Made by a program: the position numbers and the translations under genes. A stretch of DNA of 64,000 bases from Multifurca ochricompacta. Lineage: Eukaryota; Basidiomycota; Agaricomycetes; Russulales; Russulaceae. Below are positions 230 through 42,573 of the stretch, in pieces. Within the stretch, counting starts at the first letter, position 1. Each line of letters starts with the position of its first letter. The notes below the pieces were generated by a model. It made no database searches and was not told the DNA's origin. It worked only from the letters and a program-made list of their open reading frames with translations. The DNA is taken from NCBI GenBank assembly GCA_022496185.1, contig WTXG01000186.1:1-64000 (forward strand). The letters are read 5' to 3'.

Positions 230-264
230 TATATAAGGGTGTCTGTTTCATCCTCTACACTTCA
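230..264 (+). promoter_or_regulatory. LTR promoter: TATA box and inferred transcription start
   Basis: TATATAA lies at 230-236. An AGAG at about 264, 34 bases downstream, is the probable start region: the downstream intronless copy begins at exactly this word in every copia LTR of the window. The start site is inferred, not measured. The AGAG sits in an inverted repeat (ACTTCAGAG ... CTCTGAAGT). Confidence 0.7.
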
Positions 265-286
265 GAGTTTTCTTCACCTCTGAAGT

Positions 287-342
287 GTAAGTCGCCTTTA
301 CATTACTTCCTACTTATACCTTTGACTAACTGCTCTCTGTAG
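287..342 (+). other. Predicted spliceosomal intron in the LTR leader (56 nt)
   Basis: The segment begins GTAAGT, contains a GACTAAC branch-type motif 14-20 nt before the end, and ends in TAG. Removing it joins ...CTGAAGT to CTAACTTG..., exactly the sequence found again without the intron at 377-415. The same signals at the same place occur in all other copia LTRs here, with lengths of 51-56 nt. Confidence 0.8.
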
Positions 343-376
343 CTAACTTGTCATCTAGGTCAGTAGTATAGTAATT

Positions 377-415
377 AGAGTTTTCTTCACCTCTGAAGTC
401 TAACTTGTCATCTAG
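377..415 (+). repeat. Intronless copy of the LTR exon junction
   Basis: These 39 bases equal exon 1 from AGAG (264-286) joined to exon 2 (343-358), without the 56-nt intron. The match is exact by eye. The copy lies 18 nt after exon 2 and runs into the U5-like end of the LTR. Confidence 0.9.
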
Positions 416-3625: not shown

Positions 3626-4126
3626 TGTAAAACAGGCATGAGGCGCAGCATACTGACTGTAAAGTTTTAGTTAGCTAGACAAAGACAAGTAACTTCAGAG
3701 ATAGAAGGAACTCTGTTATACTATACTACTGACCTAGACAAAGACAAGTACTATGTAGAGCGTTAGTCTCAAGGTATGGTAGTAAGTAAGAGAGAGGACT
3801 TACACTTCAGAGATAGAAGGAACTCTGAAGTGTAAGAGACGAAACAGACACCCTTATATACACTTTCAAGGGATGGTCTGTGCACTGGGAATAAGTCCAC
3901 AAGTGCCGGACAATGTCCAAACAATAAACATGAGGGACTAGGGCCATTGGCCATTACAGAAATCACATGCTACATGGTGTATCAGTCAGCTACTGTGGAA
4001 TGTGAGAAAGAAAGTAATAATGATAATGTAAAAAGTCCGAGACTCCGGTATCTAATCTAATCTACAAAGTAGCCAATCTAATCACCTGATGCCTGAAGCA
4101 TCACCAAACATCTTCTGTGTTCAACA
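3626..4126 (-). mobile_element. Solo CopA LTR, minus orientation (501 bp)
   Basis: It is flanked by AGGGA duplications (3621-3625, 4127-4131). Read on the minus strand it starts TGTTGAACACAG; its other end is mutated (TGTAAAACAGG on the plus strand). It carries the LTR intron (3751-3803, 53 nt on the minus strand) and the intronless junction copy. Confidence 0.93.
3751..3803 (-). other. Predicted LTR-leader intron (53 nt)
   Basis: On the minus strand it starts GTAAGTCC, has GAGACTAAC near the 3' end and ends in TAG. The exon word after it, TACTTGTCTTTGTCTAG, is found again fused to exon 1 in the downstream intronless copy of the same LTR. Confidence 0.78.
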
Positions 4127-6862: not shown

Positions 6863-7184
6863 TGTTGAACACAGAAGATGTTCAGTGATGCTTCAGGCAT
6901 CAGGTGATTAGATTAGCTACTTTGTAGATTAGATTAGATACTGGAGTATTGGACTTTTTACATTATCATTATTACTTTCTTTCTCACATTCCACAGTAGC
7001 TGACTGATGCACCAGGTAACATGTGATTTCTGTAATGGCCAATGGCCTTTCTCTCTCATGTTTATTGTTTGGACTTTATCTGGCACTTGTGGACTTATTC
7101 CCAGTGCACACAGACCATCCCTTGGGGTATATAAGGGTGTCTGTTTCATCCTCTACACTTCAGAGTTTTCTTCACCTCTGAAGT

Positions 7185-7237
7185 GTAAGTCCTATCTCTT
7201 ACTTACTACCTTACCTTTGACTAACCATCTCCTGTAG
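7185..7237 (+). other. Predicted LTR-leader intron (53 nt)
   Basis: It begins GTAAGT, has TTTGACTAAC as branch-type motif and ends CTGTAG. Exon 1 ends ...CTGAAGT and exon 2 starts ATAACTTG. Confidence 0.82.
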
Positions 7238-7272
7238 ATAACTTGTCTTTCTAGGTGTGTAGTATAGTAATA

Positions 7273-7313
7273 CAGAGTTTTCTTCACCTCTGAAGTATAA
7301 CTTGTCTTTCTAG
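7273..7313 (+). repeat. Intronless copy of the LTR exon junction
   Basis: These 41 bases equal 7161-7184 joined to 7238-7254, with no mismatch by eye. The junction reads CTGAAGT/ATAACTTG. The copy begins at the CAGAG word that lies 33 nt after the TATA box in the upstream copy, so it looks like the 5' end of the spliced transcript. Confidence 0.92.
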
Positions 7314-7368
7314 CCTTAAAACTGCTAACACTTACAGTCAGTATGCTGTGCACCGTGCCTGTTCGACA

Positions 7369-7380
7369 GGTTATGGGCCC
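7369..7380 (+). promoter_or_regulatory. Primer-binding site, initiator tRNA-Met type
   Basis: GGTTATGGGCCC directly follows the LTR and is complementary to the initiator tRNA-Met anticodon arm, as in the other copia elements here. Confidence 0.8.
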
Positions 7381-8299
7381 TGAGCATGCTTAACTGATCT
7401 GTATTTTCTTTTTGATCAGTCCAACAAATCTTTCTTCAAAGCTCACAAAGCTTCAAGATCTTCTTTCCCAATCATCTTCTCTGTGAGCTTCAATTCCCTT
7501 TTCTTTTGCCCTTAACTGTCCACAAGGTGGTGCACTTTATGTGCCCACCTTGATCTGTCTGGCTAGTCCCTCCAGGGATTCTTGCAAGAGGTGATGAGGG
7601 ACCCTAAGCGGGTGAAACACCTTGAGTTCCTCATGTGCGCTCTAAGTAAATAGTATTCATAGTTTTAGCTGGGTTTTCATCCCATCCATAGACTTAGTAG
7701 GCCACTTGCCCAGAAGGCTTGGGGCTATAGGTTCAGTCAATGCTTGGCTCGATCCGTAAGCCAGGTTTAGTGACCTGCAGGTAGAGTTTAGGGTCTAGAA
7801 CAAGGCATGGGTAGTCACTCCCATGACGCTTGGGCTTGATACAAGTAGGCTTGAACTACTATAGTATTTACACAGTAGCTAGAGGGTTTTGTCTCTGGGC
7901 AGAAGTACCTGCTGCTTTCATTGGGGGTTCGCCCCAACCAGAGGAAACCTAATAGTCTACTATAGTCATGGCCCCAATCATCTAGGGCTTAATCATGGAC
8001 TCCACCACCAGCACTAGAGGAAGGGCTCTATACCCTTTGTCTCTAGTGGAACTTGTGGTTGGCTCCTCCATGACATGACTCCCCATCTATTTACACAATG
8101 TCCCCCTGATGTGGGCTTAGGACTTGTTGTAGATGGCATTAGACAGCCTACTATACTACTTAGAAGTTGCACATCAGAGGCAGGACTTTCTTAAGTTCTG
8201 AAGCATAGTGCCACAGAATGGATGGGCCCTCTTCAATGAGACCTGGACAACTGGTTCTAACTGCTCCTTGGAACCAGGATCATCTTTTAAATCATCTCA
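7381..8299 (+). other. 5' untranslated leader of CopA-1
   Basis: About 920 bases related to the leader of the CopB elements. No gene seen. The counterpart in CopA-2 starts at 63700 and leaves the window. Confidence 0.75.
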
Positions 8300-9399: not shown

Positions 9400-9996
9400 T
9401 GTTATGTCCGGTGCGGGACATTCCACACGACTTGTGTGACAGCGTTTGTTCATTATCAGATAAGAGACCAATAGGGCCTCTTGGAGTTATGCGGGAAGAG
9501 TCAAAGTCAAAGAGGCTGTACTCTAAGACAATGTTGAACGGGAAGTACCAGAAGTACTTGAGATGGTCAAGTCAAAGTGTCCAAAGGGAAGTCCAGAAGA
9601 CAAGCACCAATGTATTCAATAAGTCAAGTCTGAGGTCTACAAGGTAGCTACAGCAGACTTATATACATAATCGAATGAGCGTCTAAAGACAAGATAAGAC
9701 GGAATCATGTGGGCCCAAATATACGAAAGTGGAGGGCATAAAGCCGAGCTTCTGATAGGGAATTAAGTAAGTGTCTGGTCGTAGAGATAAGAGATAAGAG
9801 ATAAGGGATAAGCAAAGACAGGCCAAACATAAGTACAGTAACACAAACACGAGCAAAGGCAGTCACAGGGAAGGAAGCAGGGCACGTGATGGGTCCCAAG
9901 AAGGGGATGTGATCAAGAAGTGGAGAGTCGGTGGAAGGGAAGGGTCATCATTGGGGAGGGTGAAGAAAATTGGGTTGCTGGGCAAGGGTCGTAACA
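9400..9996 (-). mobile_element. Solo GypB-type LTR (597 bp)
   Basis: It is flanked by ATAAG duplications (9395-9399, 9997-10001) and aligns by eye with the LTRs of GypB at 22628-23218 and 30128-30720. On the minus strand it starts TGTTACGACC and has a TATA box, so it lies in minus orientation. Confidence 0.93.
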
Positions 9997-10001
9997 ATAA
10001 G

Positions 10002-13000
10002 GGACATCAGGTGACAATTGGTGATGGATCCGTAGTCCAAGTTGAAGGAACAGGCAAAGTCATACTCAAAACTCGAAACAATTATGAGTTAGAGTTAAAT
10101 AATGTCTTTTATATGCCTGGCAGTGAAAGAATACTGTCGACTAGCTGCATCACCGACAAAGGTGGCTCAGTGGAATTCTCTCCATCTGAGGTCAAAATAA
10201 AGTACAATAATACAATTATAGCAGAAGGTGTCAAGGCTTTGGGACTCTATTGGGTCTTTGGGAAAACTATGCAGAATCTAAATACTGCTTCCCATAAATC
10301 TGCATCAACTAGCCTTGATACCTGGCATTTGCACATGGGTCATATGTCAAAAGAGGCCCTCAAAAGACATGCTCCTAAGGCTGTAAAAGGCCTTAGCATT
10401 GATAATAGCCAAGTGGAAGACAAGCCATGTTATGGCTGTGAAATGGGAAAATCACACTGTCTTCCATTCCCTCCCTCTCAAAAGAGAGCTTCAGCACCCT
10501 TGGAAGTCATTCATAGTGACCTAGTTGGTCCTTTGCAATGTACTTCAATTCAAGGGAACCTATACTTTGCCACTTTCATAGACGACTTTAGCAGAACAGC
10601 TTTAGTTGTTGCTATGAAAGCAAAAAGTGATTTTACATCGGTCTTCTGTAATATTAAGGCATTCTTGGAAAATAAAACAGACAAGAAAATAAAGACCTTA
10701 CATACAGACCGAGGTGGCGAATTTGTCAATAGGGAGCTGAAGTCAATACTTGAGCAGGCTGGCATAGAGCATAAATTGATGATGCCATACTCCCCACAAC
10801 AGAATGGAAGGGCTGAAAGGTTCAACAGAACCATTATGGAAAAAGCTACCAGTATGCTGCATCATGCTGGTCTTTCCCTTGGTTTCTGGGAATGTGCAGT
10901 GTGAACAGCCTGTCACATATACAATAGAATGCCTATCCGTTCCAATAAGTGGAGGACACCGCTTGAGCTTCTGGATGGGGACATTCCAGATGTCTCTTAC
11001 TTTAAAGTATTTGGCTGCTTAGCCTACTACACTGTCCCAGAGGATAAAAGATGTAAACTGGATCACAAAGCCAGAGAAACAGTCTTTGTTGGGTATGCAC
11101 CCCACTCTAAAGGATATCTTCTTTGGGATATGCATACTCGATCCTTCATATTGTCAAGAGATGTGACATTTGATGAAGGATCCTTCCCATCCAACCTTGC
11201 CAAGGACAGCAAGGGAAAGCAAAAGGAAAAAGTTATGCCTTTTGTATTAGAAGTTGAGAGGTCTGTCCATGCTCAATCAGCAACAGCCACAGTTCCTCAG
11301 GCTCCTGAAGACAAGGAAGCCGAGGTTGAGGAACAGGAGGTAGTGGAACCTCCTCAAGTAAATCCTGAGCCTACCACACCTGATAATGAGCTTGACACAC
11401 ACGATCAAACTATCTATCAGACGCCCCCATCCCAAATCATGGAACCATCAGAACTCCCTGAGAGAACCCATGCCAAAAGACAATCTAAGAAAAAGATTGT
11501 CGGCAAACTTTCCCAACCAGTATTTACTAGGGAAAGTCCACACTCTCAGCAACGTGACAAGGCTGTGCAGGAAGATTTAGATCTTGATACTGCCCGTCCC
11601 AAACGTTCACATCACATGAATCCTCGATTCTATAATGAGGATAATGCTGAGTTTGTGCAGGGTTCTTCCAGACTTGGGCATATGGAATTGCTAAATGCCG
11701 CAGGTGTCTCTTATAGAGATCCCCTGACTTTTCAGGAGGCAATGCAGTCTGACAATGCCAGTGAATGGCTTGAGGCATGTAAATATGAAATTGATGCCTT
11801 AGATAAACTTGATGTGTGGTGCCTTGAGGATCTTCCAAAAGGAAGGAAGGCAGTCAAGTCAAAATGGGTTTTTAAGTTGAAACTGGATGGACGGTTTGTG
11901 CCAGGCTCATGGCAAAAGGGTTCACCCAAGTAGAAGGAGTGGACTTCGACGAAACATTCTCTCCAGTTGCCAGATTTGAATCACTTAGATTATTACTAGC
12001 GCTAGCTACACTAGAGGATTGGGAAATCCACCAGATGGATGTCAAATCAGCATTCCTTCATGGCGATCTGGATGAAGAGATTTATATGGAGCAGCCAGCT
12101 GGTTTTGTCGTTGCTGGTCAAGAGTCCAAAGTTTGTAGGCTACAAAAAGCATTATATGGTCTCAAACAAGCCTCCCGAGCGTGGAATCTTCAATTCCATG
12201 CAGTTCTTAATGAACTGGGCTTCACTCAGACATACTCTGATGCAGGAGTATATGTGTTTCATCAAAAGGAGGGGGATGATTCACTTTATGTCATTCTCTA
12301 TGTAGATGACATTACTATACTTGGATCTTCCAATGATAAGATAACGTGGCTGAAGTCATCACTATCTAATCGATATGAGATGACTGACTTGGGAGAGATC
12401 CAGTCATACCTTGGAGTTAACATCACCAGGGATCGTCCTAATAAGACACTGGAGATTGACCAAGCAGCCTATGTTTTATCTATTATTGAGAAGTTTGGGA
12501 TGAGGGATTCCAACCGAGTATATACTCCTCTTCCCTCTGGTGCTGATGTGCACCTGGTCAAATTTGAAGGCCAGGCATCTACTTCTGAGATAAAGAAGTA
12601 CCAACAGTTGATGGGGTCTCTGCTATGGGTGCAGATTGGAAGCAGACCCAACATCAGTTTTGCTGTGGCGCGCCTTAGTCAATATGCTTCCAACCCCTCT
12701 CAAGATCACATGCGACTTGCAAAATATGTCCTAAATATCTAAATAGTACAAAGGACTGCAAGTTGCGGTATTCTGGAGGGAATGGGGAGAGTGGCCCTCA
12801 TGGCTTTGCAGATTCCTCATGGGGAGATCAAGAGGACTGCCACTCTACCTCAGGCTACATGTTTTTCTTAGCAAATGGTGCCATTTCATGGTGTTCCAGA
12901 AAGCAGAAAACAGTAGCACAGTCCACCACTGAAGCCAAGTATATGAGCCTCTCTGAGGCTGCAAATCAGGCAGCGTGGTATAGGACTTTTATGGAGGAAT

Positions 13001-13527: not shown

Positions 13528-14033
13528 TGTTGAACACAGAAGATGTTCGGTGATGCTTCAGGCATCAGGTGATTAGATTAGCTACTTTGTAGATTAGATT
13601 AGATACCAGAGTATTGGACTTTTTACATTATCATTATTACTTTCTTTCTCACATTCTGCAGTAGCTGACTGATGCACCAGGTAACATGTGATTTCTGTAA
13701 TGGCCAATGGCCTTTCTCTCTCATGTTTATTGTTTGGACTTTATCCGGCACTTGTGGACTTATTCCCAGTGCGCACAGACCATCCCTTGGGGTATATAAG
13801 GGTGTCTGTTTCATCCTCTACACTTCAGAGTTTTCTTCACCTCTGAAGTGTAAGTCCTATCTCTTACTTACTACCTTACCTTTGACTAACCGTCTCCTGT
13901 AGATAACTTGTCTTTCTAGGTGTGTAGTATAGTAATACAGAGTTTTCTTCACCTCTGAAGTATAACTTGTCTTTCTAGCCTTAAAACTGCTAACACTTAC
14001 AGTCAGTATGCTGCGCACTGTGCCTGTTCGACA
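13528..14033 (+). repeat. 3' LTR of CopA-1 (506 bp)
   Basis: Same length and subfamily as the 5' LTR. Intron-like segment at 13850-13902 (53 nt) and intronless junction copy at 13938-13978 (41 nt). It ends GTTCGACA and is followed directly by inverted CopB-3 integrase sequence instead of the expected CACAG. Confidence 0.95.
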
Positions 14034-14683: not shown

Positions 14684-15188
14684 TGTTGAACACAGAAGAT
14701 GTTCGGTGATGCTTCAGGCATCAGGTGATTAGATTAGCTACTTTGTAGATTAGATAAGATACCGGAGTCTCAGACTTTTTACATTATCATTATTACTTTC
14801 TTTCTCACATTCCGCAGTAGCTGACTGATGCACCATGTAACATGTGATTTCTGTAGTGGCCAATGGCCTTTGTCCCTCATGTTTATTGTTTGGACTTTGT
14901 CCGGCACTTGTGGACTTATTCCCAGTGCACAGACCATCCCTTGAAGAGTATATAAGGGTGTCTGTTTCGTCTCTTACACTTCAGAGTTTCTTCTATCTCT
15001 GAAGTGTAAGTCCCTTCTCTTACTTACTATTATACCTTGAGACTAACGCTCTTAGTAGGAACTTGTCTTTGTCTAGGTCAGTAGTATAGTATAATAGAGT
15101 TTCTTCTATCTCTGAAGTGAACTTGTCTTTGTCTAGCTTAAACTGCTAACCTTCACAGTCAGTATGCTGCGCACATGCCTGTTTCACA
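14684..15188 (+). mobile_element. Solo CopA LTR (505 bp)
   Basis: It is flanked by AACAG (14679-14683, 15189-15193). The intron-like segment is at 15006-15058 (53 nt). The exon 2 word GAACTTGTCTTTGTCTAG and the loop variant TTTCTTCTAT are unique to this LTR, and both recur in its own intronless junction copy (around 15105-15136). Confidence 0.95.
15006..15058 (+). other. Predicted LTR-leader intron (53 nt)
   Basis: Starts GTAAGTCCC, contains GAGACTAAC and ends AGTAG. Removal joins CTGAAGT to GAACTTG, the junction that appears fused 45 nt further on. Confidence 0.8.
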
Positions 15189-16085: not shown

Positions 16086-16585
16086 TGTTGAACAGGCATG
16101 AGGCGCAGCATACTGACTGTAGAGTGTTAGCAGGTTAAGCTAGACAAAGAAAGTTACTTCAGAGGTTAGAAGAACTCTATTAACTATACTACTGACCTAG
16201 ACAAAGAAAGTTCTACATAAGAACATTAGTCTAATAGTGAAGTAGATAGTAAAGAGAAACTTACACTTCAGAGGTTAGAAGAACTCTGAAGTGGAAGAGA
16301 CAAAACAGACACCCTTATATACAATCCAAGGGATGGTCTGTGCACTGGGAATAAGTCCACAAGTGCCAGACAAAGTCCAAACAATAAACATGAGGGAGAA
16401 AGGCCATTGGCCACTACAGAAATCACATGTTACATGGTGTATCAGTCAGCTACTGCAGAATGTGAGAAAGAAAGTAATAATGATAATGTAAAAGTCCGAA
16501 ACTCCGGTATCTAATCTAATCTACAAAGTAGCTAATCTAATCACCTGATGCCTGAAGCATCACCGAACATCTTCTGTGTTCAACA
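16086..16585 (-). mobile_element. Solo CopA LTR, minus orientation (500 bp)
   Basis: It is flanked by CATTG (16081-16085, 16586-16590). The intron-like segment is at 16213-16264 (52 nt on the minus strand, GTAAGT...GACTAAT...TAG). Its exon 2 word AACTTTCTTTGTCTAG differs from all other LTRs and recurs in its own intronless copy. Confidence 0.95.
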
Positions 16586-17332: not shown

Positions 17333-17874
17333 TGTTGACATGGGACGTGTCTGGAGATGCTTCAGGCATCTGAGGATCGCTTTAGCTGTAGATAAGATTA
17401 GATTAGGTTCCGGAGTTTCGGACTTTTTACAATATCTTTATTACATTTCTTTCTCACCTTACTCAGCTGATTAGTGATGCCCTTAGTAATGCGCAGTAAG
17501 CATGTGATATCTCTTTGGCCAATGGCCTTAATCCCTCTCTGTTTATTGTCCGGCACTTGTGGACTTATTCCCAGTGCGCACAGACCATTTCCCCTGGCCC
17601 CTATGGGTATATAAGGGTGTCTGTTTCATCTCTTACACTTCAGAGTTTCTTCTACCTCTGAAGTGTAAGTCCCATTTAGTCTACTCTCTACTTCCTTTAG
17701 ACTAGTGATGTTCTGGCCCGGCTTGGCCCAAAAGCCGCGGCTTTGGCTCAGCCTGAGGTGGCTCCGGCTTTCCTGAAGTCTGGGCCAAGCCAAAGCCGCC
17801 ACAGATGGCTTGGCCCTGGCCCGGCTTGGCCCAAGCTGCGGCTTTTGGCAGAGAAAATTTTATGACATATAACT

Positions 17875-18487
17875 TGTGACGGTTTTGTCTGTTGGTGTTA
17901 GGGTCATGTGTACCATGTGCTTTTCTTTTTCTTTTGCCTTACATTTTACTATATCACGCAGATACACACATGACTTGCTTATGAAGGACTTATTACTTAC
18001 ATGCTGACTGATTTGCTTACTGATCTTACTTAGTGACTTACTGATCAACATCCAGAGGGCGCAACCCCTCTCCTTTCTTTATCCTTCTGGGGTATTCTAC
18101 TGTACAACCATTAGACTACCTAGTGAACGCTCTAGTAACTACCAGAACCAACCTTCATAGCATAGCACATGTATATAAACCCCTAGTAGATCAGAGTAAG
18201 ACTTTAAGTCTGTTCTTCTGTAGCAATACAGGTGTACTGGGACTCACATTACTTGACTGAGAACACCTTCCACTTGAAACCTTTAAGCCGCGCCTTGAAG
18301 GAACTTCGACCCCGTGAAACTTGCAGCAGGACTTAGTGTCACTGCTCGACTTCGTCTCGCGCGTGTGCCCCCTTTGACCGGCACAGCTTGATCTAGCTTG
18401 GAACCTTGACTTGATAAAAGGCTCTTGTAGCATTGACAGACAACCTCAAACCTCGAACTCAACACAGCACCACACCTTGCTGTGACA
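17875..18487 (+). repeat. 5' LTR of GypA (613 bp)
   Basis: Starts TGTGACGG and ends GCTGTGACA. TATATAA is near 18173, followed by a perfect palindrome GACTTTAAGTC about 30 nt later that is also present in LTR-D. I found no clear tRNA 3'-end complement after the LTR. Confidence 0.93.
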
Positions 18488-19942
18488 TAAGAACAGACTT
18501 TCAAAGAACTAAACAGAAGAACCCACCAGAACTGCAAGGCGACGACGACGCGTCCCTTGCCCGACACCCGATCGCGACGTCTTCAACACGCGAGCCCAGA
18601 ACCCCACCATCTGAACGAACGTCCTTCGACGAGACATCCCCACGACGATACCTGTCGACCGAAGAATCAGAACCCAGAGAAAGAGGAGACTTACCCTTTG
18701 ACCTTCACAACCGCTTTGCATTACTTGCCGCAACCGACGACACCATCGATATAGAAACTAGGACCACCACCCCACAAATAATGGCAGCCAGACCGAATAC
18801 TAGACAAGCACGACGGGCCGCGGAGGAAGACGTTGTCGAATCGCATCCCAGTTGTCCTGAACGAAGTCCCGAAGAGAGATCCACTGCGACCACCCGAGCC
18901 ATGGGCAGAAATCCCGACGAACCACCCTTAGGCCCTCCTACCCAGGGGCAGGAACAGTAAATCAAGGAAGTGGAACCATGACAGGAGTACCACCATCCTT
19001 CTTCGAAGGGACCGCGACACGGCCATGGATTGGTTGGCCAAACTCGAATTATTCTTCAGTTTGAATGAAACCGTGGCCACAGTCCAGAACGAAAGAACCA
19101 GAGTGGCTTACACCCTGGGATTGATACGAGGACCCAGGGTAGACCAATGGGTAGTGGACCAAATCAAGTGGCTGACTGACATCAAAGAAGGGAACATTCG
19201 AGTCCCATACATTTGGGCCGGATTCAAACAAATCTTCCGAGAAGCATGGGCCGACGTAGCGGCAGGACAAAAGGCACTACGTGCGCTAGACCGATTACAA
19301 ATGCGCGATGCCAATATTGATGACTATATCGCCGAATTTCGCACGCTAGCCACAAGGGCAGAACTTCATATCAATGATCCGGCCGCTCGGCAGTACTTCC
19401 ACCGAGGTCTCCCCACGCGTCTCGTTCAAACAATGTTATTATTTGATCAGCCCAAAACCTTTGACGAAGCAGCAGCATCTGCTCGGAAACATCACGCTAA
19501 TTGGTTATACAGTAAGGATGCCCTTGGCATGAGACCCACAACCAATACACCACCGCATGGCAATAAATTCACATTCTATCGACGACGCGATCACGATATC
19601 TCGACCCCCAAAGTCATAAAAAAAGCTGTAACAATCGAAGAGAAAGAACAATACAAAAAGGAAGGCCGATGTTTCGAATGCGGTAGGCGAGGACATTTGG
19701 TCCGAGACTGCCCGAATAAGAAACCACGTGCGAATGCTCCCACACCGGCTCGCGCTGCCACAATCACCGAAACACCCACGACTGCGACGGTACCAGCAAA
19801 GGCGCCCGCCTCCGCTAACGCGTCAAACACCCCGACAGTCGATCTCGACGCGCTTGCTACGGCTCTTAGGACTATGACAGATGAACAGCGCCAGAAACTC
19901 CAGGAGAAATTCAGTGGTGACAAGGATTTTTACATCGCTTGA
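18488..19942 (+). pseudogene. GypA gag (frameshifted)
   Basis: An N-terminal part rich in Arg, Pro and acidic residues is readable around the ATG at 18781 (MAARPNTRQARR). The retrotransposon gag domain follows in another frame from 19025 (MDWLAKLELFF, then a helical core), and a CCHC knuckle, CFECGRRGHLVRDC, lies near residue 220. The frame appears to change about 18950 and again in the G run near 19010, where one G seems missing. The last part ends in TGA at 19940-19942, overlapping the next frame. It would form the particle shell and bind RNA. Confidence 0.85.
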
Positions 19943-22627
19943 ACAACACGGCCTACATTCAAGCGATACTTTCACATCATGTATATAGATCATCTCTAAA
20001 ATCAATGAAAATATCTGTTCCACTACATGATGCGACCAATAAGGCCCACATACAAGCACTCGTGGATAGCGGTGCAACCGAAAACTTCATCAACTATCGA
20101 ACGGTCATCAAACATCGCCTCCCCACGAAATGACTAACTATTCCAAAAAGCTCCAGAACGCGGACGGATCACCTAATCAAACACACACCATCACGCAATG
20201 TGTAGATCTCACAGTCACAACTAATAACAACCAACAAAATCATCGCTTTTACGTTGCATCTATCGGCGCCGATGAAATGATTCTTGGATATCCTTGGCTC
20301 GCCGCAAATAACCCTACTATCGACTGGACAACAGGAACCCTCAACCAATCACTCACGTTCAATCTACCCGACAGCCGACTTAAACATTTGAATATAGCAC
20401 AAGAATTAGCGATCAAAGCCAAAGACATGACAGAGCGAACTTGGGATCAGATCGTTCCGAAAGAATATCAATGACATCAGAAGGTTTTAGCGATCAAGAA
20501 GCGCAACGGTTCCCGGCGGCACGACTCTGGGATCACAAAATAGAACTAAAGCCAGACGCACCCGCCACGCTAGACTGCAAGATCTACCCGTTAGGACTGG
20601 GCGAGCAGGACGCGCTCAATAAGTTCCTAGACGAGCACTTACAGAAGGGGTATATCACCGAATCAAAATCACCCTACGCGTCCCCTTTCTTCTTCATCAA
20701 GAAGAAAGACGGGAAACTACGTCCAGTCCAAGATTATCGAAAACTTAACAGTTGGACCATCCGAAATACATACCCACTCCCTCTCATACCTGAGCTCATC
20801 GATCGCGTAAGAGGAAGCACTCTATTTACCAAAATGGATATCCGTTGGGGCTATAATAACGTACGGATCGTACCAGAGGATCGTTGGAAAGCAGCGTTCA
20901 AAACTAATCGCGGTCTCTACGAACCTAACGTGATGTTTTTCGGCCTAACCAACTCTCCAGCAACATTTCAAACTATGATGAACGCGGAATTCCGCGAAGA
21001 ATTGGATGAACACGATGCCTCGGGAAGGGCCTGGTTCACGGTCTATATGGATGACATTTTAATACATACTGACTCCGATCCCGTGAACCACCGATCTAAG
21101 GTCCACCGTATCCTGGACAAACTCGATAAACTCGATCTATATCTTAAGCTGGAAAAATGTGCATTCGAACAGACGCGAATTGAATATCTCGGCCTAATCC
21201 TAGAAGGAAATCAGGTTCATATGGATCCGGTAAAAGTCGAGGGCATCACATCCTGGAAAACCCCGACCACGGTTAAAGAAGTTAGATCATTCCTCGGATT
21301 TTGTCAATTTTACAGACGGTTTATACAAGGCTTCAGTAAGATTGCGGCACCCCTGAATGCCCTCACTAGTGTGAAGAATCCGTGGAAATGGACAACAGAC
21401 AAACAGAACGCCTTCGATACTCTAAAACAACGAGTGACCTCACAACCAGTTCTTGCTCAACCAGACTTCACCAAACCTTTCATCGTAGATACAGACGCCT
21501 CAGGGTTCGCAGTAGGAGCGACGCTTAGTCAAAAAGACCATGATGGACGATTACACCCCATCGCGTATCTCTCAAAGACACTAGACGCTACCCAAAGAAA
21601 TTGGGACATTTACGATCGGGAATTATTCGCGATTATGGTCGCCTTCCGAACATGGCGCCAGTATCTTCTGGGAGCCCAACACAAGGTACAAGTGCGCACC
21701 GATCACAATAATTTACAATATTTCAAAGAACCGCAAAAACTCAATCGCCGCCAAGCACGATGGCTTCAAGAATTAGCTGATTTCGACTTCTCCCTCGAAC
21801 ATGTTCCCGGCAAACTACACACGGTAGCCGACATGCTATCGCGTAGACCAGATGCCGAACATGGTGATAGTGATAACGAAGCAATCACCGTTTTGCCACC
21901 GGCGTTGTTTGTTAAGGTAGCCCGCACCAATAAACTCCCATTTCCTCAAACGTTGTCCGAAAGACAAGAGATTCTACACCAGCACCATGACCATATCCTA
22001 GCGGGACACCCTGGTATTGATAAAACTATTAGAAAAGTTCAGCAGGATTACGAAGGGCCGGGACTTACGGACTTTGTATGCGAATACATCCGCGGCTGTG
22101 CGCCATGTCAAGAAAACAAGCCTAAGCTAACAAAGAAAGTTCCGCTTTTCCCGTTAGATGTACCAGTGGCCGTGGGCCCTTTCCAATACATTGCCATGGA
22201 CCTCATCACGGACCTCCCTGTCTCTGGCCGCTACGACGCCGTACTAACCATTGTGGATCAAGGTTGTTCGAAAGCGGCTAAATTCATTCCGTGCTCGAAA
22301 GATATCACGGGTGAGGGGGTTGCAACACTCTACTATCGACACATATTCCCGCTATTCGGCGTCCTGCGGCGCATCATTTCGGATCGCGATCCGCATTTCA
22401 CTTCTCAATTCTCTCGCGCCCTAGCAACCACCTTACAAATCCAGCAGAACCTGTCGACGGCCTTTCACCCCCGCACCGACGGTGCAAGTGAGCGAATGAA
22501 CTTGTGGTTAGAACAATATCTCCGCCTCTGGGTTGGCAACGATCAACATCAGTGGGCCGACTTCCTCCCACTTGCCGAATATGTCCATAATTCCTGGACA
22601 CACGATCGAACTAAGTTGTCTCCACAC
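19943..22627 (+). pseudogene. GypA pol: protease, RT, RNase H, integrase N-part
   Basis: Protease: LVDSGATENFIN and [33 protein letters not shown] and catalytic YMDD (VYMDDILIHT). RNase H: VDTDASGFAVGATLSQ. Integrase: HHCC finger (GHPGID ... CAPCQENK), catalytic AMDLITDLP and IISDRDPHFTSQF, and a glutamate in GASERMNLWLEQYLR. Two in-frame TGA codons (near 20131 and 20472) are each followed by an apparent one-base loss in an A or T run. From about 20480 the frame is open to the GypB insertion, with all catalytic residues in place. Integrase resumes at 30726. Confidence 0.93.
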
Positions 22628-23218
22628 TGTTACGTCCGGTGCGAGACGTACTGCACGACTTGTGCGACAGCTTCGTTCGTGTGTTCAGATAAGAGGCCAA
22701 TAGGACCTCTTGGAGTTTCAGTGGGAGAGTCAAAGTCAAAGGGGCTGTTCCCTAGTGACAATGTTGAGCGGGAAGTGCCGAAAGCACTGAGATGATCGAG
22801 TCAAAGGGTCCAAGGGAGAGTCCGAAAGACAAACACCGATGTATTCAATAAGTCGAGTCTGAGGTCTACACGGTAGCTACAGTGGACTTATATACGTAAT
22901 TGAGTGGGCGTCTATAGATAAGATAACAGAGTCAGGTGGGCCCAAATATACGGAAGCGGACGGCGTAAAGTCGGGCTTCTGATAGGGTATTAAGTAAGTG
23001 TCCGAGCATAAAGATAAGGGATAACAAGATAAGAGATAAGGGCCAATCATAGGTACACAACAAGTCAACAAGTCCAAAGCAGGTCACGGGGAAGGGAGCA
23101 AAGCACGTGATGGGTCCCAGGACGGGGACGTGATCATGAAGTGCAAGGTAGGCGGCAGGGATGGGTCACTGTTGGGGAGGTGGAAGAAAAATGGGGTTGC
23201 TCGGTAGAGATTGTAACA
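22628..23218 (-). repeat. 3' LTR of GypB (left, 591 bp)
   Basis: On the minus strand it starts TGTTACAATCTC and ends GGACGTAACA; TATA box on that strand near 22888. It is preceded (minus sense) by the polypurine tract AGAGGGGGTGA at 23219-23229. Confidence 0.93.
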
Positions 23219-23249
23219 TCACCCCCTCTTCTGGTTCTAGCAGACCCGG

Positions 23250-24446
23250 CTAGAAACGACTCGTACCGTCATCATCCTGTACCAACTCCAGATAATCGTC
23301 GGCTACATTACGATCATCCATCGTGTAGTTCTCCTTGTCTGGGTCCTGCGGGCATTGATGGGTGCGAAGGAAGCCATATGGACCGCACTGACCACACAGG
23401 CGGCACATGTCATGGATTGGACAATCCAACTCGCGATGCCCCGAGTTGTGGCGGAGACACTTACCGCACCACCCTGATGGGTTGATGATTGTTGGGGCAA
23501 CTCCCACACGGCGGAAGATGCAGAACCGGCTCCAGTGGAGGTTGCTGCGACAATGCCGGCACCACTTGCGGTTCAAGGGGCAGTTCCAACTGATGTGATA
23601 CTTGCTATCGCATCGCCAGCACGTCTCTCCACGAGGGTTCTCGTGCATCCGAGGCATTTCGAATCGGTTTGGTATCAGCCTCGGGGCGGCTCCTAATGAT
23701 CGTGGGGGGAGGGGTCATGCGTACGTGTCGGCGTACCGTTCAGCAATCGTCTGATATGCGTCTCCTATCTCCAGCCTCTTCCTGATCTCCACCAACTCCT
23801 GTTCCACTTGGAACATCCCATTCGTCAACCTTGCCATCATCTTGCATGCTCTTTATATTGTTTGTTAAGTGTTGTGCGCAATGTCAAATTCTTCCGCAGT
23901 CTCATCACCTCAGCTTTGAGACGCGGAAGGCGCATATCGTTGAGCACCTCATCGATAGCGAAGGCGTGGGAGTCTTCGGCAGCCAGGTGTCCGAGCTGCT
24001 CGTCAGTCATGTGTGGTGGAGACGTCCCGTATACCTTTCTTCAAATAGACCGGGGCCCCATAGACAGGGCCATCTTTCTTCATACACCCGGCTACATCCA
24101 TTCCTCCGTTGGTGTAGAATATGTATTTGGCGATGGCAGTGGTCCCGTCAGCCATGGTGATCTCGAGAGGGAAATAGGTCGAAGAGTTGGGGTTGTTGGA
24201 AAAGAAAGGAAACTCGGGCACCTCATCATCCAGCTCCATGCCCAGCAGATCATTCGGGTGTGGCTCTTCATTGTGTTCGAAATCGTCGTTCGGGTTCGGG
24301 GACTGATTTTTAACTCGGGCCTCGGCTGCCTCATAATCAATGGGGGAAGAGGGACGTGTGGAGGGATGAGCAGAGGGGAAATTCTCGACAACTACAGTGG
24401 TGGCCGTGAAGGCATCAATGGCAGCGTTGGCAGCGACAAAAGACAT
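23250..24446 (-). pseudogene. GypB third ORF: conserved domain, helical region, zinc-knuckle array
   Basis: It lies after integrase in the place where some retroelements carry env. From the start at 24446 (MSFVAANAAIDAF) the product has an acidic, Pro/Ser-rich part, then a compact domain (EFPFFSNNPN; KYIFYTNGGMDVAGC; GPVYGAPVYL), a frame change near 24020, and a helical stretch (RLPRLKAEVMRLRKN). An in-frame TGA follows near 23718. The last part has CCHC knuckles CWRCDSKYHISWNC and CRHCRSNLHWSRFC, then two looser Cys/His groups. There is no signal peptide or membrane segment, so it is not an envelope protein. GypC has a clear homologue (48142-49328). The function is unknown; nucleic-acid binding is likely for the knuckles. 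Confidence 0.82.
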
Positions 24447-24520
24447 GATAGATTGGATGGTGTTAGAACGTTGCTGGGAGAGCATGTACTGGGGAATTAA
24501 CAGGGTCTGAGGCACTTCTT

Positions 24521-25789
24521 TTAAGCATTCTTCGGCGCTTCTGGGTGTCGGATGTGGAACTCCGAGATAAGGTCTGGGGCAAAGATATCCCCGGCTGGTT
24601 CCCACGAACTGTCAGAGTCTGGGAATCCCTTCCACTTGATTAGGTAGTACAGTCTGCGCCCTCGGCCTTGTCGCTTGGAGTCTAGAACTCGTTCCACTTC
24701 CCACTCTTCTTCGCCATCGATAAGGTCAGGTGGAGGTCTCGGGAAGTTCTCTCCGTGGATGGAGGTCTCCCTGTAAGGGGTCAGAAGCTTGGCATGGAAG
24801 ACTGGGTGGATCTTCCATTTCGGCGGCAATTTCAATTCATATGATACATCTGACAGCTTCCTTGTGATCTGGAAGGGTCCGTGACGTCGGGGCGCTAGTT
24901 TGGCCGTGGGGTGTGATGTGTGAATGTTCCTGCCTTCGAGCCATACCCAGTCATTGGTCCGATAAGGTGTGAATGTGCTTGGCTGTGCTGCCAGGAGTTG
25001 TTGCGCCTTTACCAGATTCTCATTGGCCGATTGTCGCAGTTCTTCCCATTGGCTTATCCGTTCGGTTGCCGACGGGACGTTGGTGGGCTTATCTGTCCAT
25101 GTGGTGCGTGGGGTCCAGCCCATGATAAGGGAAAAAGGGGTGGCTTTTGTCGTGCCATTGGGCCACGAGTTGTGGGCAAACTCCGCGGTTGATAGCCATT
25201 CTGCCCAGTCATCTTGCCTGCTGTTGCACCAGAATCGGAGGTACTGTTCTAGCCATTGGTTCGTTCGTTCAGACTGTCCGTCCGTTTGGGGATGGTATGC
25301 TGTAGAGATGTTCTGCATGATGTCCAACGTTTTGCATAGGGCCTTTGCAAATGCCGATGTGAAGCGGGTATCCCTATCAGAGATGATCTTCTTGGGGAGC
25401 CCGTAGTGACGGTATACGTGGTCCAGGTACAGTTTTGCCACTCCTTCGGCTGTGATGGTTTCGTTACAGGGGATAAAGAGGGCTGCTTTGGAGCAATCAT
25501 GATCTGTGATTGTGAGGATAGTGTCGAAGCCTTGTGATTTGGGCAGCTTGACAATGAAGTCCATGGCAATGGTCTGGAACGGAGTTGACGCAGTGGGAGT
25601 GATGGGGTACAGTGGTGGGACTTTCGGGTGCGTGTTCACCTTGTTTGCTTGACATGCCGCGCATCCTTGTACGTAGCGTTCAATGTCCTTTTTCATATTG
25701 GGCCACCAGTAGTCTCGTTTGGCCAAGGCGTAGGTGTTGGCGATGCCAGGATGGCCAGCGGAGGGAAGGTCGTGATGAAAATGGATCAC
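24521..25789 (-). pseudogene. GypB integrase with C-terminal chromodomain
   Basis: Open over 422 codons. HHCC zinc finger: HHDLPSAGHPG ... CAACQANK. Catalytic core: AMDFIVKLP, IISDRDTRFTSAF and the glutamate of TDGQSERTNQWLEQ. The C-terminus holds the GPF-like region (RRHGPFQITRKL) and a chromodomain (EEEWEVERVLDSKRQ, YYLIKWKGFPDSDSSWEPAG), which in chromoviruses steers integration to marked chromatin. This stretch itself shows no break, but it needs the upstream pol frame, which is broken. Confidence 0.93.
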
Positions 25790-27380
25790 CCCCCTCTTAA
25801 TGTTGTCACCACCGGTGACAACGAGTCGATCCCCGTCCTTCCACCAAAGACCATCAATTTTCTTTAATTGTGAGCGTCAGCCCATGAAAGGCACAGGTCT
25901 TGGTTCATATTTTGGGAAACCTGTGCCCACAGGTCCATGTCGTGGAGACTGACCACGGCTGTTTTTGCAAAAACTTCTTCCGGGAGGACAGTGATGTCAT
26001 TGTTGTCGTCCTCTCCTGTATGCATATCTGGCCTACGTGACAGTGCATCTGCTCTAGCTTCTGGCTCCCTGCGATGTGTTTCAGTGTAAGTTATATTCTT
26101 CTAACTCCAAGACCTCTCGTGCCACGCGTCGACTAATTTTGTGGGGTTCCTTCCAATATAATAGATTGGAATGATCAGTGTGAATGATGGTCTTGTGCGG
26201 GGTCCCTGCCAGGTAGGGTCGCCAGTGTCGCAATGCCTTGACTATGGCTAAGAGCTCCCTATCCCAGATATCATAGTTCCTTTCGGCTGGGGAGAAGGTT
26301 TCGGAGTAGTATGCCACTGGGTGAAGTATTTGTGCGGCATTTCTTTGATATAATACTGCTCCGTTCGCAAAGCGGGAGGCGTCCACCTCTAGTTCAAAGG
26401 GGTGACTCAGATCCGGCTGAATGAGTACTGGTTCTGATCCGACAAGGTCCCTGATCTGTTCAAATGCCTGTTGCTGTGCCGTACCCCAGTACCATGGTAC
26501 ATCCTTTTCAGTAGGTCGTTCAATGGTCGCGCTACGCCTGAAAATCCCTTGACGAATCGTCGGTAGAAGTTGCAGAATCCAATGAATGACCGGACGTCTT
26601 TGACACAGGTTGGCACCGGCCATTCTCGGATTCCTTGTACTTTAATGGGGTCCATACGCACTCGTCCTCCTTCCAGGATGACTCCAGGTACTCGACACTC
26701 CGCTGCTCAAAGGAACACTTGGCAGGCTTGAGATACAGGTCATGTTCTTGTAATATGTCCAGCACCTGGTGCACTCGGTCTCGATGGTGGTCTAAATTGT
26801 CTGAGGTAGCGACCAGGATGTCGTCCATGTAGACCACTACTTCTCCTGTGAGAATAAGATCGCGGAAGATATGATTCATCATAGACTGGAATGTCGCCGG
26901 CGAATTCGTGAGACCAAAGAACATGACATTGGGTTCGAATAACCCTTGATTTGTCTTGAACGCTGCCTTGCACTGATCACCTTCCTTGATTCGAACATTA
27001 TTGTAGCCCCACCGCACGTCCATTTTTGAGAAGAGAGATTTATCCCTCATAGTGTCGATGAGTTCAGAGATGAGCGGCAGGGGGTAGGCATTTTTCACGG
27101 TGTATGCATTGATTCGTCGATAGTCCTGAACTGGCCGCAGCTTGCCATCCTTCTTCTTGATAAAGAAGAAGGGCGAGGCATACTGCGATTTGGATGGGCG
27201 AATGTAACCTTTGGCCAAATGTTCTTCGAGGAATTCTGTTAACGCTACCTGCTCCGACTGGGACAGTGGGTAGATTTTACAATCTATGGCGGTCGGTGTC
27301 TCCGGGAGTAGGTCTATGCATGGTCCCATGGTCTGGAGGGTGGAAAGCGCTGGGATTCTTCCTCGGAAAATACCTTCCAA
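25790..27380 (-). pseudogene. GypB reverse transcriptase and RNase H (frameshifted)
   Basis: The minus strand reads the RT domain from 27380: [20 protein letters not shown], then [11 protein letters not shown] with the catalytic YMDD. In the region 26532-26660 the frame changes and RNase H continues (LEVDASRFANGAVLYQR, YDIWDRELLAIVKALRHW). The join from RNase H to integrase near 25860-26080 is also broken. The order and motifs match GypA and GypC. Confidence 0.9.
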
Positions 27381-27538
27381 TGCCGATGGTAGGTGTCCGG
27401 CACTATGTCGCTGTATGTCTTCTCTGTCTGCCCCTGTATTGCCTTTGAGCTAATTCTGATGCTTTGGTGACATAGCAGTAGCCTGGGTCTTCTTCTTTTG
27501 TACTGGCAGCCTTTATTGTCGGGTGTCTGACTGCGTAA

Positions 27539-27994
27539 TCATAGCCCATGATGTGATAATGGTGGGTATGATTCTTTATCCATCGTCGCATCCGCCCAAT
27601 TGATCTTGGGTTCAAACGCAGCGAGCCACGGGTATCCCAGAATGAGGTCTTCGTCTCCTAGATCCGTGATTAAGAAGCGAATGTTTTTCGTAGCTTCTCC
27701 AACCTGGACCCTCAGATCCGTGTAGTGGGTGATCTTTCCCGCACGGTTGGCCGTTCCATCAATGTTCCAAATGTTCTTTTCCTGGGGAAGTGCCAGCCGT
27801 CCCAAACCCATTGTCCTAAGTAGTCGTGGGTGAATAAAATTGTCGGTGGCTCCTGAGTCCACCAAGATATCTCGATCGGCCGTCCTCTGTGTAGTTTCAA
27901 AATGGACTGGTATTTTCAACGATTTGAATCGACTAGCATACACAGAGGTAACATGGAGTGCTCGCGCCCAGGCCGATGGGTTTGAGCCTATCAA
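27539..27994 (-). pseudogene. GypB aspartic protease region
   Basis: Contains ILVDSGATDNFIHPRLL with the catalytic aspartate and, about 70 residues on, EDLILGYPWLAAFEPKINW, the second landmark of gypsy proteases. It starts at MIGSNPSAWARALHV and resembles GypC 52408-52878 closely. It is separated from gag and RT by frame changes. The role is cleavage of Gag-Pol. Confidence 0.9.
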
Positions 27995-28103
27995 AAATCC
28001 TTCTTTGCAAACGCCTTTTCTACTAGTATGGCGCGCACTTCCTCACTCTCTTTCATCATGTTAGCCCATATATCCTGAGCCTTTTCTTCTTTTGACCGTT
28101 TGT

Positions 28104-30108
28104 CTATGGTTGGTGGGTTGTTCTGAGCAGGATGTTCTGTTGCCGTAGTGGTGGCAGCGACCCGTGCTCCCTTCTTGGGCAGTCTCGAGACATGTGCCCC
28201 AATGCTCTACAACGGAAGCAGCGCCCTTCTTTCATGAGGGTTTGTCGCTCATCTTCCGTGAGTGTCGCTGAGCTCGGGCTCATCTGCGGAGGTGTCCATA
28301 GCATTTGGGTCCCGCTGGGTGTGCTGGACAGGCTTGACTCCGAAGGCGGCCTTCCACTGATCTCTGGTTTTTCCTTTTTGGTGTCGACTCCAAACCGCGT
28401 TTGGAAGTCCAAGTAGTCTTGTTGTTGCCGCCGAGCAGCATCGACCCAGGTGTCCCAATCATGGGGGTGATGGAACTGTATGATATTTTTAACCAGGGGG
28501 TTGGGCAGTCCCTGGGAGAAGAGGTCCAACGTGGCCTCCTCATCTGTGTCGTAGCCAGCTCGGTTGGCCAAACTTCTGAACTTGGCTACATATGCGTCAA
28601 GCTCTCCTTTTTCCATCCTGAGGGACTTTAGTTCTCGTGCGGCCTTCTGTTTGGCCTGTCCATCTGTGAAGGCGTCCTTAAATCTCTCGGCTATGGTCTC
28701 CCAAAGACCTTCGCTCGTAGTTCGGCGCCCGCTCTCAATCTGCTCATTCAGCCATTCTAGCTGTTCCATCGTCCAGTCATCCACTGCTTCCCCTCGGATC
28801 AGGGACAAAAACAATTGGCCCTTTGGAACGGGTTGACAATTTGTGGGACATCATGATTGAAGTTCTTGAATGTCGTGAACTCCAACATGAATTTCTTGCT
28901 CTGTGAGCGATCCCCAGTGAATGTTTGGGGTAAAACTCCAGACAGACGTCCAGAGGGGGGGGGATGTTCGGTGGTGGTGCCACAGGAGCTGGCGGGGCGG
29001 GATCTGGGAGTTGGGCGGCAATCGTTGACATATTTTGGTAGAGTGGGGTTACTGTGTCAGTGGATCGTATTGATATCTGTGGAGTTGTCAAAGCAGGGGC
29101 TCTGATCGTGACAACTTCAGGTGCAACCGGAAACGTAGTCCTTGCTAATGCCGGTGCTTCTTCTTCGCTGGGTTCTTCTACGTACTCCTCTGGTTCGGAG
29201 TCCATGACAATGGCCGGAGGGTTTTCTCTCCATGGGCCTAGTCCAAATTCGGGTGGGGCAGGTCTGGTCGTGACCCAAGAGTTTCGACTGTCCGAGTATC
29301 GGATACAATACCAAACTCTTTTCTCGTCGTCGTATTCTACCGGTTGGTATCTTCCGTCGTGATAGACATAGTGTGACGGTTTCCGATGACTTGTGACAGG
29401 TTTTGTGACAAAACGTGACGTTTTTCGAGTCGCGCGCGCGCGCGTTCGGTTTCGAGTTATGTGACTAGAGGGCTGATAATTCTTATGATCTGATTGTTTA
29501 ACTGCACACCACGCTTGTGCTACAGAGGGTGCAACCCCTCTTACTAATTCCCATCTTATTTCAGGGCCTAACCCCTGGAGCATCTGATTATCTGGATACT
29601 TACTGGAACCTTCTGATTAGCTTATATTTACTGATTGTACCTCACTCAGGATGTATTTAAGCTACTAGATTAACTGAGACAGACTTTAAGTCTGTTCTCT
29701 TGTATCTAATACAGGTGTATTCGACTTCACTAAGATCCACTTGAACTCCCTGAGTAGCAGCTTGAGGAGGCTTCTTCCCAGTAACTCTGCAGGGCTGATT
29801 GCTGCTGCTTTCGACTTCGTTTCCTGCACGCGCCCCCTCCATAACATCGTGGGCACTTGAAACTTTGAACTAAACTAGGCCTTCTCTGTTAGACCTTGAA
29901 TCTTGAGTGCGCCCCGCATCTTGAGGGCCTTCAGACATCGAAAACGTGACTGGACGCAGCAGACACCTGGCTGTGACATGTAGTATCCAAACTCGGATTC
30001 AAAGTCCTTCCAGGCGGCAGAGCCAAGTACTTGCTGTGAAAGATTATTCTCGTCTCTGCACTCGATGAGTTCTTCTCGGAAGAGGGTCTGACTGCGGCTG
30101 GAAGCCAC
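28104..30108 (-). pseudogene. GypB gag, split by LTR-D and frameshifted
   Basis: The minus strand starts at 30108 (MASSRSQTLFREELIE), is cut by LTR-D at 29978-29372, resumes with YHDGRYQPVEYDDE, and shifts frame near a run of nine G's (28955-28964). The gag core follows (WTMEQLEWLNEQ, GELDAYVAKFRSLANRAG) with the CCHC knuckle CFRCRALGHMSRDC close to the end. The G run is the likely site of a length change, natural or from sequencing. Confidence 0.88.
29372..29978 (+). mobile_element. Solo LTR-D (607 bp, GypA-related)
   Basis: Starts TGTGACGG, ends GGCTGTGACA and shares with the GypA LTR the segment around AGACTTTAAGTCTGTTCT. Flanks are CATAG (29367-29371) and TGTAG (29979-29983): an imperfect duplication. 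Contains a short CG repeat near 29433-29445. A decayed second copy forms 44170-55186. Confidence 0.85.
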
Positions 30109-30127
30109 TGTGAGAGACTCGACTTGA

Positions 30128-30720
30128 TGTTACGTCCGGTGCGAGACGTACTGCACGACTTGTGCGACAGCTTCGTTCGTGTGTTCAGATAAGAGGCCAA
30201 TAGGACCTCTTGGAGTTTCAGTGGGAGAGTCAAAGTCAAAGGGGCTGTTCCCTAGTGACAATGTTGAGCAGGAAGTGCCGAAAGCACTGAGATGATCGAG
30301 TCAAAGGGTCCAAGGGAGAGTCCGAAAGACAAACACCGATGTATTCAATAAGTCGAGTCTGAGGTCTACACGGTAGCTACAGTGGACTTATATACGTAAT
30401 TGAGTGGGCGTCTATAGATAAGATAACGGAGTCAGGTGGGCCCAAATATACGGAAGCGGACGGCGTAAAGTCGGGCTTCTGATAGGGTATTAAGTAAGTG
30501 TCCGAGCATAAAGATAAGGGGATAACAAGATAAGAGATAAGGGGCCAATCATAGGTACACAACAAGTCAACAAGTCCAAAGCAGGTCACGGGGAAGGGAG
30601 CAAAGCACGTGATGGGTCCCAGGACGGGGACGTGATCATGAAGTGCAAGGTAGGCAGCAGGGATGGGTCACTGTTGGGGAGGTGGAAGAAAAATGGGGTT
30701 GCTCGGTAGAGATTGTAACA
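30128..30720 (-). repeat. 5' LTR of GypB (right, 593 bp)
   Basis: Partner of 22628-23218. Differences: GAGCGGG/GAGCAGG, AACAGAG/AACGGAG, GGCGGC/GGCAGC and two extra G's in G runs. Confidence 0.93.
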
Positions 30721-30725
30721 CACAC

Positions 30726-31328: not shown

Positions 31329-31386
31329 AGGGGGGTGCATCTACCCCAACAATCTGTGTCCCCATCCTTTTTTTCCTTCTTCCCCT

Positions 31387-32589: not shown

Positions 32590-32607
32590 GGTCAGACAGA
32601 GGCTTAC

Positions 32608-42537: not shown

Positions 42538-42573
42538 CAACTTGTCTTTTCTAGGTCAGTAGTGTAGTAATAT

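Follow-up and report, generated by a model that had tools for sequence, protein, structure and literature searches.

What looks like two exons separated by an intron is followed, in the copia-type LTRs of Multifurca ochricompacta, by the same two exons joined directly. How could an LTR come to carry such a copy of its own spliced leader, and how would the copy be kept in step with the interrupted sequence upstream? The LTR at 6863-7368 is taken as the reference for the window, that is, the whole 64-kb stretch of DNA that was analysed. The order of its parts is U3, TATATAAG, E1, intron 1, E2, spacer, X, U5, and primer-binding-type site (Table 1), where E1 and E2 are putative exons and X is E1 joined to E2.

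Elements and LTRs of the Window

The elements are Ty1/copia-type LTR retrotransposons. As is typical of that class, the LTRs are direct and have TG...CA ends, the target duplications are 5 bp long (matching in 14 of 22 LTR pairs, with no match in six and two unreadable), and integrase is encoded upstream of the RVT_2-type reverse transcriptase (PF07727; E values 3.6e-81 and 1.3e-70) in both pol loci. The LTRs starting at 6863 and 13528, between which the first of these loci lies, have no matching target duplication. Gypsy-type pol pieces were also seen at 20384-22792 (plus strand, RVT_1 and integrase) and 24524-25876 (minus strand, integrase and chromodomain). The word GGTTATGGGCCC stands 3' of 5' LTRs, and the primer-binding-type site is presumably a candidate of the initiator-Met half-tRNA type; no corresponding tRNA was found at the two sites examined of 22 candidate host sites. 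Searches for relatives gave no match to the LTR DNA pattern in viral contigs and prokaryote genomes and no protein match in viral contigs; protein relatives are present in the protein database, where they come without flanking DNA for a comparison of LTRs.

A sequence-blind detector, which knows only the pattern A-GT..AG-B followed later by A-B, reported ten places in the window, all of them within these LTRs (donors at 287, 7185, 13850, 15006, 42485, and 46452 on the plus strand and at 3803, 16264, 43836, and 56590 on the minus strand), and no such arrangement on both reversed strands of the window. Two LTRs carry insertions, one at 17665-33540 within intron 1 and the other at about 46208-46430 within E1. 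X is exact (by eye) in the first of them; in the second, it agrees exactly with E2 and with the 21 nt that are left of E1. The initial annotation had claimed an X for each LTR that reaches this region, which holds for 11 of 11 LTRs in the window, i.e., the ten detected and the split one. A further LTR remnant, at 55249-55455, is broken off at the TATA box, before E1.

Table 1. Coordinates of the LTR parts and pol loci in the window.
Feature	Position	Strand	Remarks
Reference LTR	6863-7368	+	reads TGTTGAAC...GTTCGACA
TATATAAG	7128-7135	+	34 nt upstream of A in AGAG
E1, putative first exon	7162-7184	+	A of AGAG is the putative RNA start
Intron 1 (putative)	7185-7237	+	GTAAGT ... CTAAC ... TGTAG, 53 nt
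E2, putative micro-exon	7238-7254	+	17 nt; contains branch-point-like TAAC; AG at end
Spacer	7255-7273	+	starts with GTGTGT, putative second 5' splice site
X, E1 joined to E2	7274-7313	+	exact copy, 0 mismatches
Intron 2 (putative)	7255-7313	+	spacer and X; terminal AG of X is the putative 3' splice site
U5	7314-7368	+	
Primer-binding-type site GGTTATGGGCCCTG	7369-7382	+	directly 3' of reference LTR
LTR cassette	264-415	+	E1 264-286, intron 287-342, E2 343-358, spacer 359-376, X 377-415
LTR cassette	3675-3826	-	E1 3804-3826, intron 3751-3803, E2 3734-3750, spacer, X 3675-3714
First copia-type pol, flanked by LTRs 6863 and 13528	9798-12740	+	rve 9798-10904, RVT_2 11876-12740; frames broken, separate pieces
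LTR cassette	13827-13978	+	E1 13827-13849, intron 13850-13902, E2 13903-13919, spacer, X 13939-13978
LTR cassette	14983-15136	+	E1 14983-15005, intron 15006-15058, E2 15059-15076, spacer, X 15096-15136
LTR cassette	16140-16287	-	E1 16265-16287, intron 16213-16264, E2 16197-16212, spacer, X 16140-16178
Split LTR, E1	17642-17664	+	insertion within intron 1; donor at 17665
Split LTR, remainder	33565-33640	+	E2 33565-33581, spacer 33582-33600, X 33601-33640
LTR cassette	42462-42613	+	E1 42462-42484, intron 42485-42537, E2 42538-42554, spacer, X 42574-42613
LTR cassette	43712-43859	-	E1 43837-43859, intron 43786-43836, E2 43770-43785, spacer, X 43712-43750
LTR starting at 45892, insertion in E1	46431-46576	+	21 nt of E1 remain, 46431-46451; intron 46452-46504, E2 46505-46519, X 46539-46576
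LTR cassette	56463-56613	-	E1 56591-56613, intron 56535-56590, E2 56519-56534, spacer 56502-56518, X 56463-56501
Second copia-type pol	59896-62576	-	integrase piece 61032-62576, RVT_2 piece 59896-60981

Occurrence in the Genome

In the genome of M. ochricompacta (53.8 Mb, 605 contigs), the exact pattern of E1 followed by GTAAGT occurs at at least 1425 sites, and a similar pattern lacking the splice-site requirement at at least 1587. The first 89 of the 100 matches listed for E1 plus GTAAGT were taken as a sample, which was thus chosen on intact E1 and GTAAGT and not on X; scoring of X needs a C after it. X is identical to E1+E2 at 75 of these sites and differs at eight (by one edit in five and two edits in three). 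It is absent at four, three of which are broken into other sequence and one of which has U5 directly 3' of E2. The remaining two possess X without the usual AG-C end, and one of these (L033) is identical by eye. The statement that every copia LTR carries the copy is therefore valid for the window and too broad for the genome sample.

The spacing between TATA box and copy start, given as 33-34 nt in the initial annotation, was found again in the sample, TATATAAG beginning 34 nt before the A of AGAG at 85 of 87 sites and 33 nt before it at the other two; the exact word is absent at two of the 89. The copy had been said to begin at (C)AGAG. Identity does extend from the A of AGAG, and the preceding C matches in some LTRs only. 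In the reference LTR (7157-7184) and in other LTRs the putative start site lies inside a 9-bp palindrome, ACTTCAGAG...CTCTGAAGT, the loop of which is the variable part of E1; X retains only its 3' arm and AGAG.

Concordance of X with E1 and E2

The window LTRs, together with those of the set L001-L097 that fit a grammar in which E2 is followed by GTNNGTA and X by C[CT], made up a set of 82 LTRs, in which these particular letters are demanded by the grammar and hence carry no information of their own. Over the whole set, X differs from the E1+E2 of its own LTR by ten edits in 3201 nt (0.31%), while X sequences of two different LTRs differ by about 15% on average. When X was dealt at random among the LTRs, the mean was 474 edits and the minimum 385 (5000 shuffles). 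Identity with X extends over the whole of E1+E2 in 74 of 82 LTRs, over E1 in 80, and over E2 in 75. There are 45 different E1+E2 words, arising from substitutions as well as indels, and 41 of them were found with an identical X. Distances between X sequences correlate almost perfectly with those between E1+E2 (rho 0.99), and far less with those of intron 1 (0.35), U5 (0.16), and U3 (0.10). Co-variation of the upstream, conceptually spliced copy with the downstream copy, proposed as a check in the initial annotation, is thus borne out both by the 75 identical sites of the 89 and by the comparison with the shuffled sets. An origin of X by chance was rejected on the grounds of the empty reversed-strand controls and the shuffle results. 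The E1-intron-E2-spacer-X layout is confirmed as real, and the concerted evolution of X with E1+E2 is solid.

Since X follows E1+E2 across so many variants, it must be renewed. Its simplest source would be the spliced leader of the element RNA, written back into the LTR at first-strand transfer. It could be argued instead that selection alone is responsible, X not being copied from the leader at all: transfer in LTR elements needs matching repeat ends, and mismatched copies would be purged. Purging preserves what is there and cannot create 45 haplotypes, 41 of them with an identical X and paired indels included, so that this explanation is very improbable.

Signals of Two Putative Introns

Splice-site-like and branch-point-like signals are conserved in the LTR cassette. 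Putative intron 1 is 49-56 nt long in the 82-LTR set and has CT[AG]A[CT] 12-14 nt upstream of its end in 82 of 82 LTRs. A second candidate 5' splice site, GTNNGT, stands 3' of the upstream E2 at all 83 sampled sites with a scorable X. It is likewise present in 100 of 100 among the matches listed, out of 249, for a pattern open at these six positions and, with nothing at all required there, in 87 of 93 rows; in the other six the E2/X match stops early or late. Positions 3 and 4 of GTNNGT vary and the others are fixed, as in a 5' splice site. At the opposite end, X terminates with TAG in 81 and CAG in one of the 82 LTRs, a NAC motif, admittedly a lenient one, occurs 10-15 nt upstream of this end in 82 of 82, and spacer and X together measure 55-60 nt. 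GT directly after X was found in 0 of 93 rows. From this arrangement, E2 would have two roles depending on its position, namely that of a micro-exon upstream and that of branch point and 3' splice site within X.

GTCAGT and GTGTGT are weaker-looking 5' splice sites than GTAAGT, yet the two-intron model needs their efficient use, which counts against it. For comparison with the host, actin-family matches are interrupted by gaps of about 31-64 nt (rough sizes); a search of two host stretches for the motif GTNNG...CT[AG]A[CT]...YAG gave no candidate, and inspection by eye no firm one. A further motif, CTAAC...ACAG|TCAGTAT, which resembles a branch point plus 3' splice site, is seen at 7314-7340 and in the U5 of other LTRs. 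Its use would remove U5 sequence from the copied RNA, and it may therefore serve mRNA only.

Proposed Replication Cycle

Transcription would start at the A of AGAG and yield an RNA beginning with E1-intron 1-E2-spacer-X-U5. At the 5' end of this RNA, two short introns would be removed: intron 1, with GTAAGT..CTAAC..TAG, and intron 2, comprising spacer and old X, with the GTNNGT after E2 at its start and the terminal AG of X at its end. The copy of E2 within X would provide the branch point and the 3' splice site of intron 2, and the mature 5' end would read E1-E2-U5. The 3' LTR would stay unspliced, with the RNA terminating at or beyond X, so that X would be the only contiguous E1-E2 at the 3' end. 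Minus-strand strong-stop DNA (E1-E2-U5) would then pair with X and be extended through spacer, E2, intron 1, E1, and U3, giving a new LTR of the order U3-E1-intron-E2-spacer-[E1-E2]-U5. As the outcome, the LTR would receive a new X from the spliced leader and give up the old one, and intron 1 would be safe from loss. Conventional cycles, in which unspliced RNA lands on the first E1 and the cassette is copied unchanged, would probably also occur.

The second splice is where this scheme departs from the initial annotation, according to which the spliced leader is written into the LTR at transfer. That idea stands in so far as X tracks E1+E2, but splicing of intron 1 alone is insufficient: it would leave a leader of E1-E2-spacer-old X-U5, and hence add one unit per cycle. 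A second splice taking out spacer and old X would close the loop. When both introns were removed in silico and the product was made to land on X, the exact LTR was rebuilt in 74 of 82 cases, as against 0 of 82 upon removal of intron 1 alone. Unspliced copying onto the first E1 rebuilds 82 of 82, trivially; because it reproduces any LTR, the layout alone is no proof, and only the concordance is informative.

The loop might also be closed if intron 1 alone were spliced, X were renewed at the transfer, and the old X were lost when reverse transcriptase slips from one 40-nt repeat to the other. Direct repeats can drop out during reverse transcription, and the concordance would be accounted for. 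However, unslipped E1-E2-spacer-X products should then be frequent, and the exact pattern of E1-E2 followed by spacer has 0 matches in the genome; moreover, the GTNNGT after E2 is left unexplained. With these points against it, single splicing plus slippage is disfavoured and must be rated as quite unlikely.

Renewal of X coupled to splicing by way of two introns is considered the best explanation, to which a probability of roughly 0.6 is assigned. We infer from the DNA that splicing takes place, where the RNA starts and is polyadenylated, and where the strong-stop DNA lands. It also has slightly better than even odds that the transcript of the DNA lacks, at its 5' end, the repeat used in first-strand transfer, and that this repeat is made by double splicing of the leader, its spliced form being stored in the 3' LTR. 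This stored copy would be an intron at the 5' end and would be rewritten at each such jump, and the LTR introns would survive the RNA stage.

Linkage and Odd LTR Forms

Within the cassette, from E1 through intron 1, E2, and the spacer to X, the parts show mutual linkage, with rank correlations of mostly about 0.2-0.7. The cassette and U3 correlate only within about 0.17 either way (all LTRs, families A and B), also in the last ~20 alignment columns before E1. Three U3/U5 families (A, B, and C) can be distinguished; family C, with ten non-redundant LTRs, shows some higher values, e.g., 0.68 for the spacer versus the last part of U3. Full shuffling of the cassettes is contradicted by their nearest neighbours, 81% of which are of the same U5 family (42% expected). 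U5 itself is of little help here, since its correlation with U3 within family A amounts to only 0.03-0.18. Near-identical cassettes occur across families C and A and families C and B, with none for A and B; the cassette has therefore crossed families.

The drop of linkage at the putative RNA start is the trace to be expected of strand transfer between molecules and agrees with a 5' end at AGAG. The near-unlinking of U3 and cassette is not accounted for by landing on X, so that another route of exchange at the RNA start is needed. The weak linkage also suggests that unspliced leaders are copied onto the first E1 in some cycles, and that renewal of X need not accompany every cycle. The notion that the copy is renewed in each cycle is thus to be modified: X is renewed, as its tracking of E1+E2 tells, but the linkage points to conventional copying as well.

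Several odd LTR forms were encountered. The intronless form U3-E1-E2-U5 is represented by 27 LTRs, the form U3-E1-intron-E2-U5, lacking spacer and X, by four, and a double E1-intron-E2-spacer unit by one; perhaps another double unit exists on contig C59, where two spacers lie 123 nt apart. L082 has no intron, whereas L097, its likely partner at a distance of 5.9 kb and with the same U5, is normal; L071 and L072, about 6 kb apart, are both intronless. These forms were dropped as proof of the two-intron model, which allows each of them, but so does recombination between short repeats.

Sister LTRs

Conventional replication from unspliced RNA would suffice if X were an old duplication that is kept equal by gene conversion or by recombination between genomic repeats. 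The existence of intronless and truncated LTRs, including the unequal pair L082 and L097, is in favour of this view. Sister LTRs bear on it more directly. Pairs L106/L107 and L110/L111 resisted alignment and were excluded from the matching pairs; L112/L113, with 4 of 5 letters of the target duplication matching, is counted among the 14. Eight of the 14 are without sister difference in E1, E2, or X. In three, one LTR has an indel common to E2 and X (L026, L009/L010, and L011/L012), which is predicted by gene conversion and not by simple reverse transcription. The other three have a private indel in a single copy (L038 in E1, L103 in E2, and L113 in E2), i.e., conversion has left these differences standing. 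Private substitutions in one copy have stayed in L056 and L057 too, but these belong to pairs without matching target duplication and may not be sisters, which weakens the case against gene conversion. Conversion would further need to work independently on two segments, of about 22-23 and 14-18 nt, with an intron splitting one copy only, and to do so across 45 haplotypes while leaving the intron in place. On balance, it is an unlikely source of the concordance, although clearly ahead of the other alternatives considered here. L038 displays an identical E2/X mismatch in both sister LTRs; being common to both, the mismatch must already have existed when the element inserted, which counts against the renewal of X, although a lag of one cycle or a mixed template would have this effect.

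Sister LTRs of seven elements (L009/L010, L011/L012, L026, L038, L102/L103, L112/L113, and L114/L115) differ by clusters of small indels. By a hand count over the 14 matching pairs, 25 of 30 indel events lie downstream of the putative RNA start, and in six of the seven elements the letters missing downstream of the start belong to the 5' LTR. These clusters could be real biology or read error. Many substitutions in LTR pairs, e.g., 6863/13528 of the window, L031, and L057, are CpG to TpG/CpA changes, which suggests methylation-type decay.

If the clusters of single-base indels by which sister LTRs differ beyond the start are read errors, polishing or misassembly might also be held to have homogenised the short repeats. 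Against such an artefact, E1 words distinguished by substitutions are found repeatedly, in numerous LTRs and on numerous contigs, and for each of them X matches in most instances; homogenising one LTR with another would wipe out matched variants specific to single LTRs rather than make them. An assembly artefact is accordingly hard to believe in.

Comparison with Known Systems

Introns should be lost when spliced RNA is reverse-transcribed. Nevertheless, a family with more than 1400 countable LTR sites seems to use the copying of spliced RNA, and the genome itself seems to record which form of the RNA was copied. If true, the LTRs would contain an inherited segment whose letters record a splicing event, and its concerted evolution would be driven by the replication cycle and not by gene conversion. 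They would also offer a natural system for RNA packaging choice, the landing of strand transfer, and intron survival through an RNA stage.

In a full-text literature search, assessed from titles and abstract openings and with subscription journals mostly outside its reach, no paper was listed that describes an LTR intron plus a spliced downstream copy, in agreement with the initial annotation, which knew of no description. From the Ty1/copia elements, which they resemble in the features named above, the present elements would differ by introns in the transcribed part of the LTR and by a downstream spliced self-copy that acts as the repeat. According to the available portions of two sources, element RNA of BARE1, Drosophila copia, EVD, and Ogre is spliced by the host (PMC3735527, PMC12786077), and retrotransposons must avoid reverse transcription of spliced RNA (PMC3735527). 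Splicing yields subgenomic or Gag-only RNA in those elements, as far as these texts go, whereas the spliced RNA would be the template here. For Tnt1, evidence was given of first-strand transfer between molecules, with more than one RNA as the template (PMC2923131, in part); multiple templates would fit the weak linkage between U3 and cassette, but the repeat region of Tnt1 is ordinary, and an LTR intron is not mentioned in that portion of the source. In foamy viruses, the major splice donor lies in the LTR ahead of the poly(A) signal and has a differing fate at the two RNA ends (PMC3694450), as would the putative donors of the present LTRs; the abstract describes the donor alone, with no complete LTR intron or spliced copy. 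Judged from these partial sources, spliced retrotransposon RNAs and the foamy-virus splice donor are the nearest known counterparts of the system proposed here.
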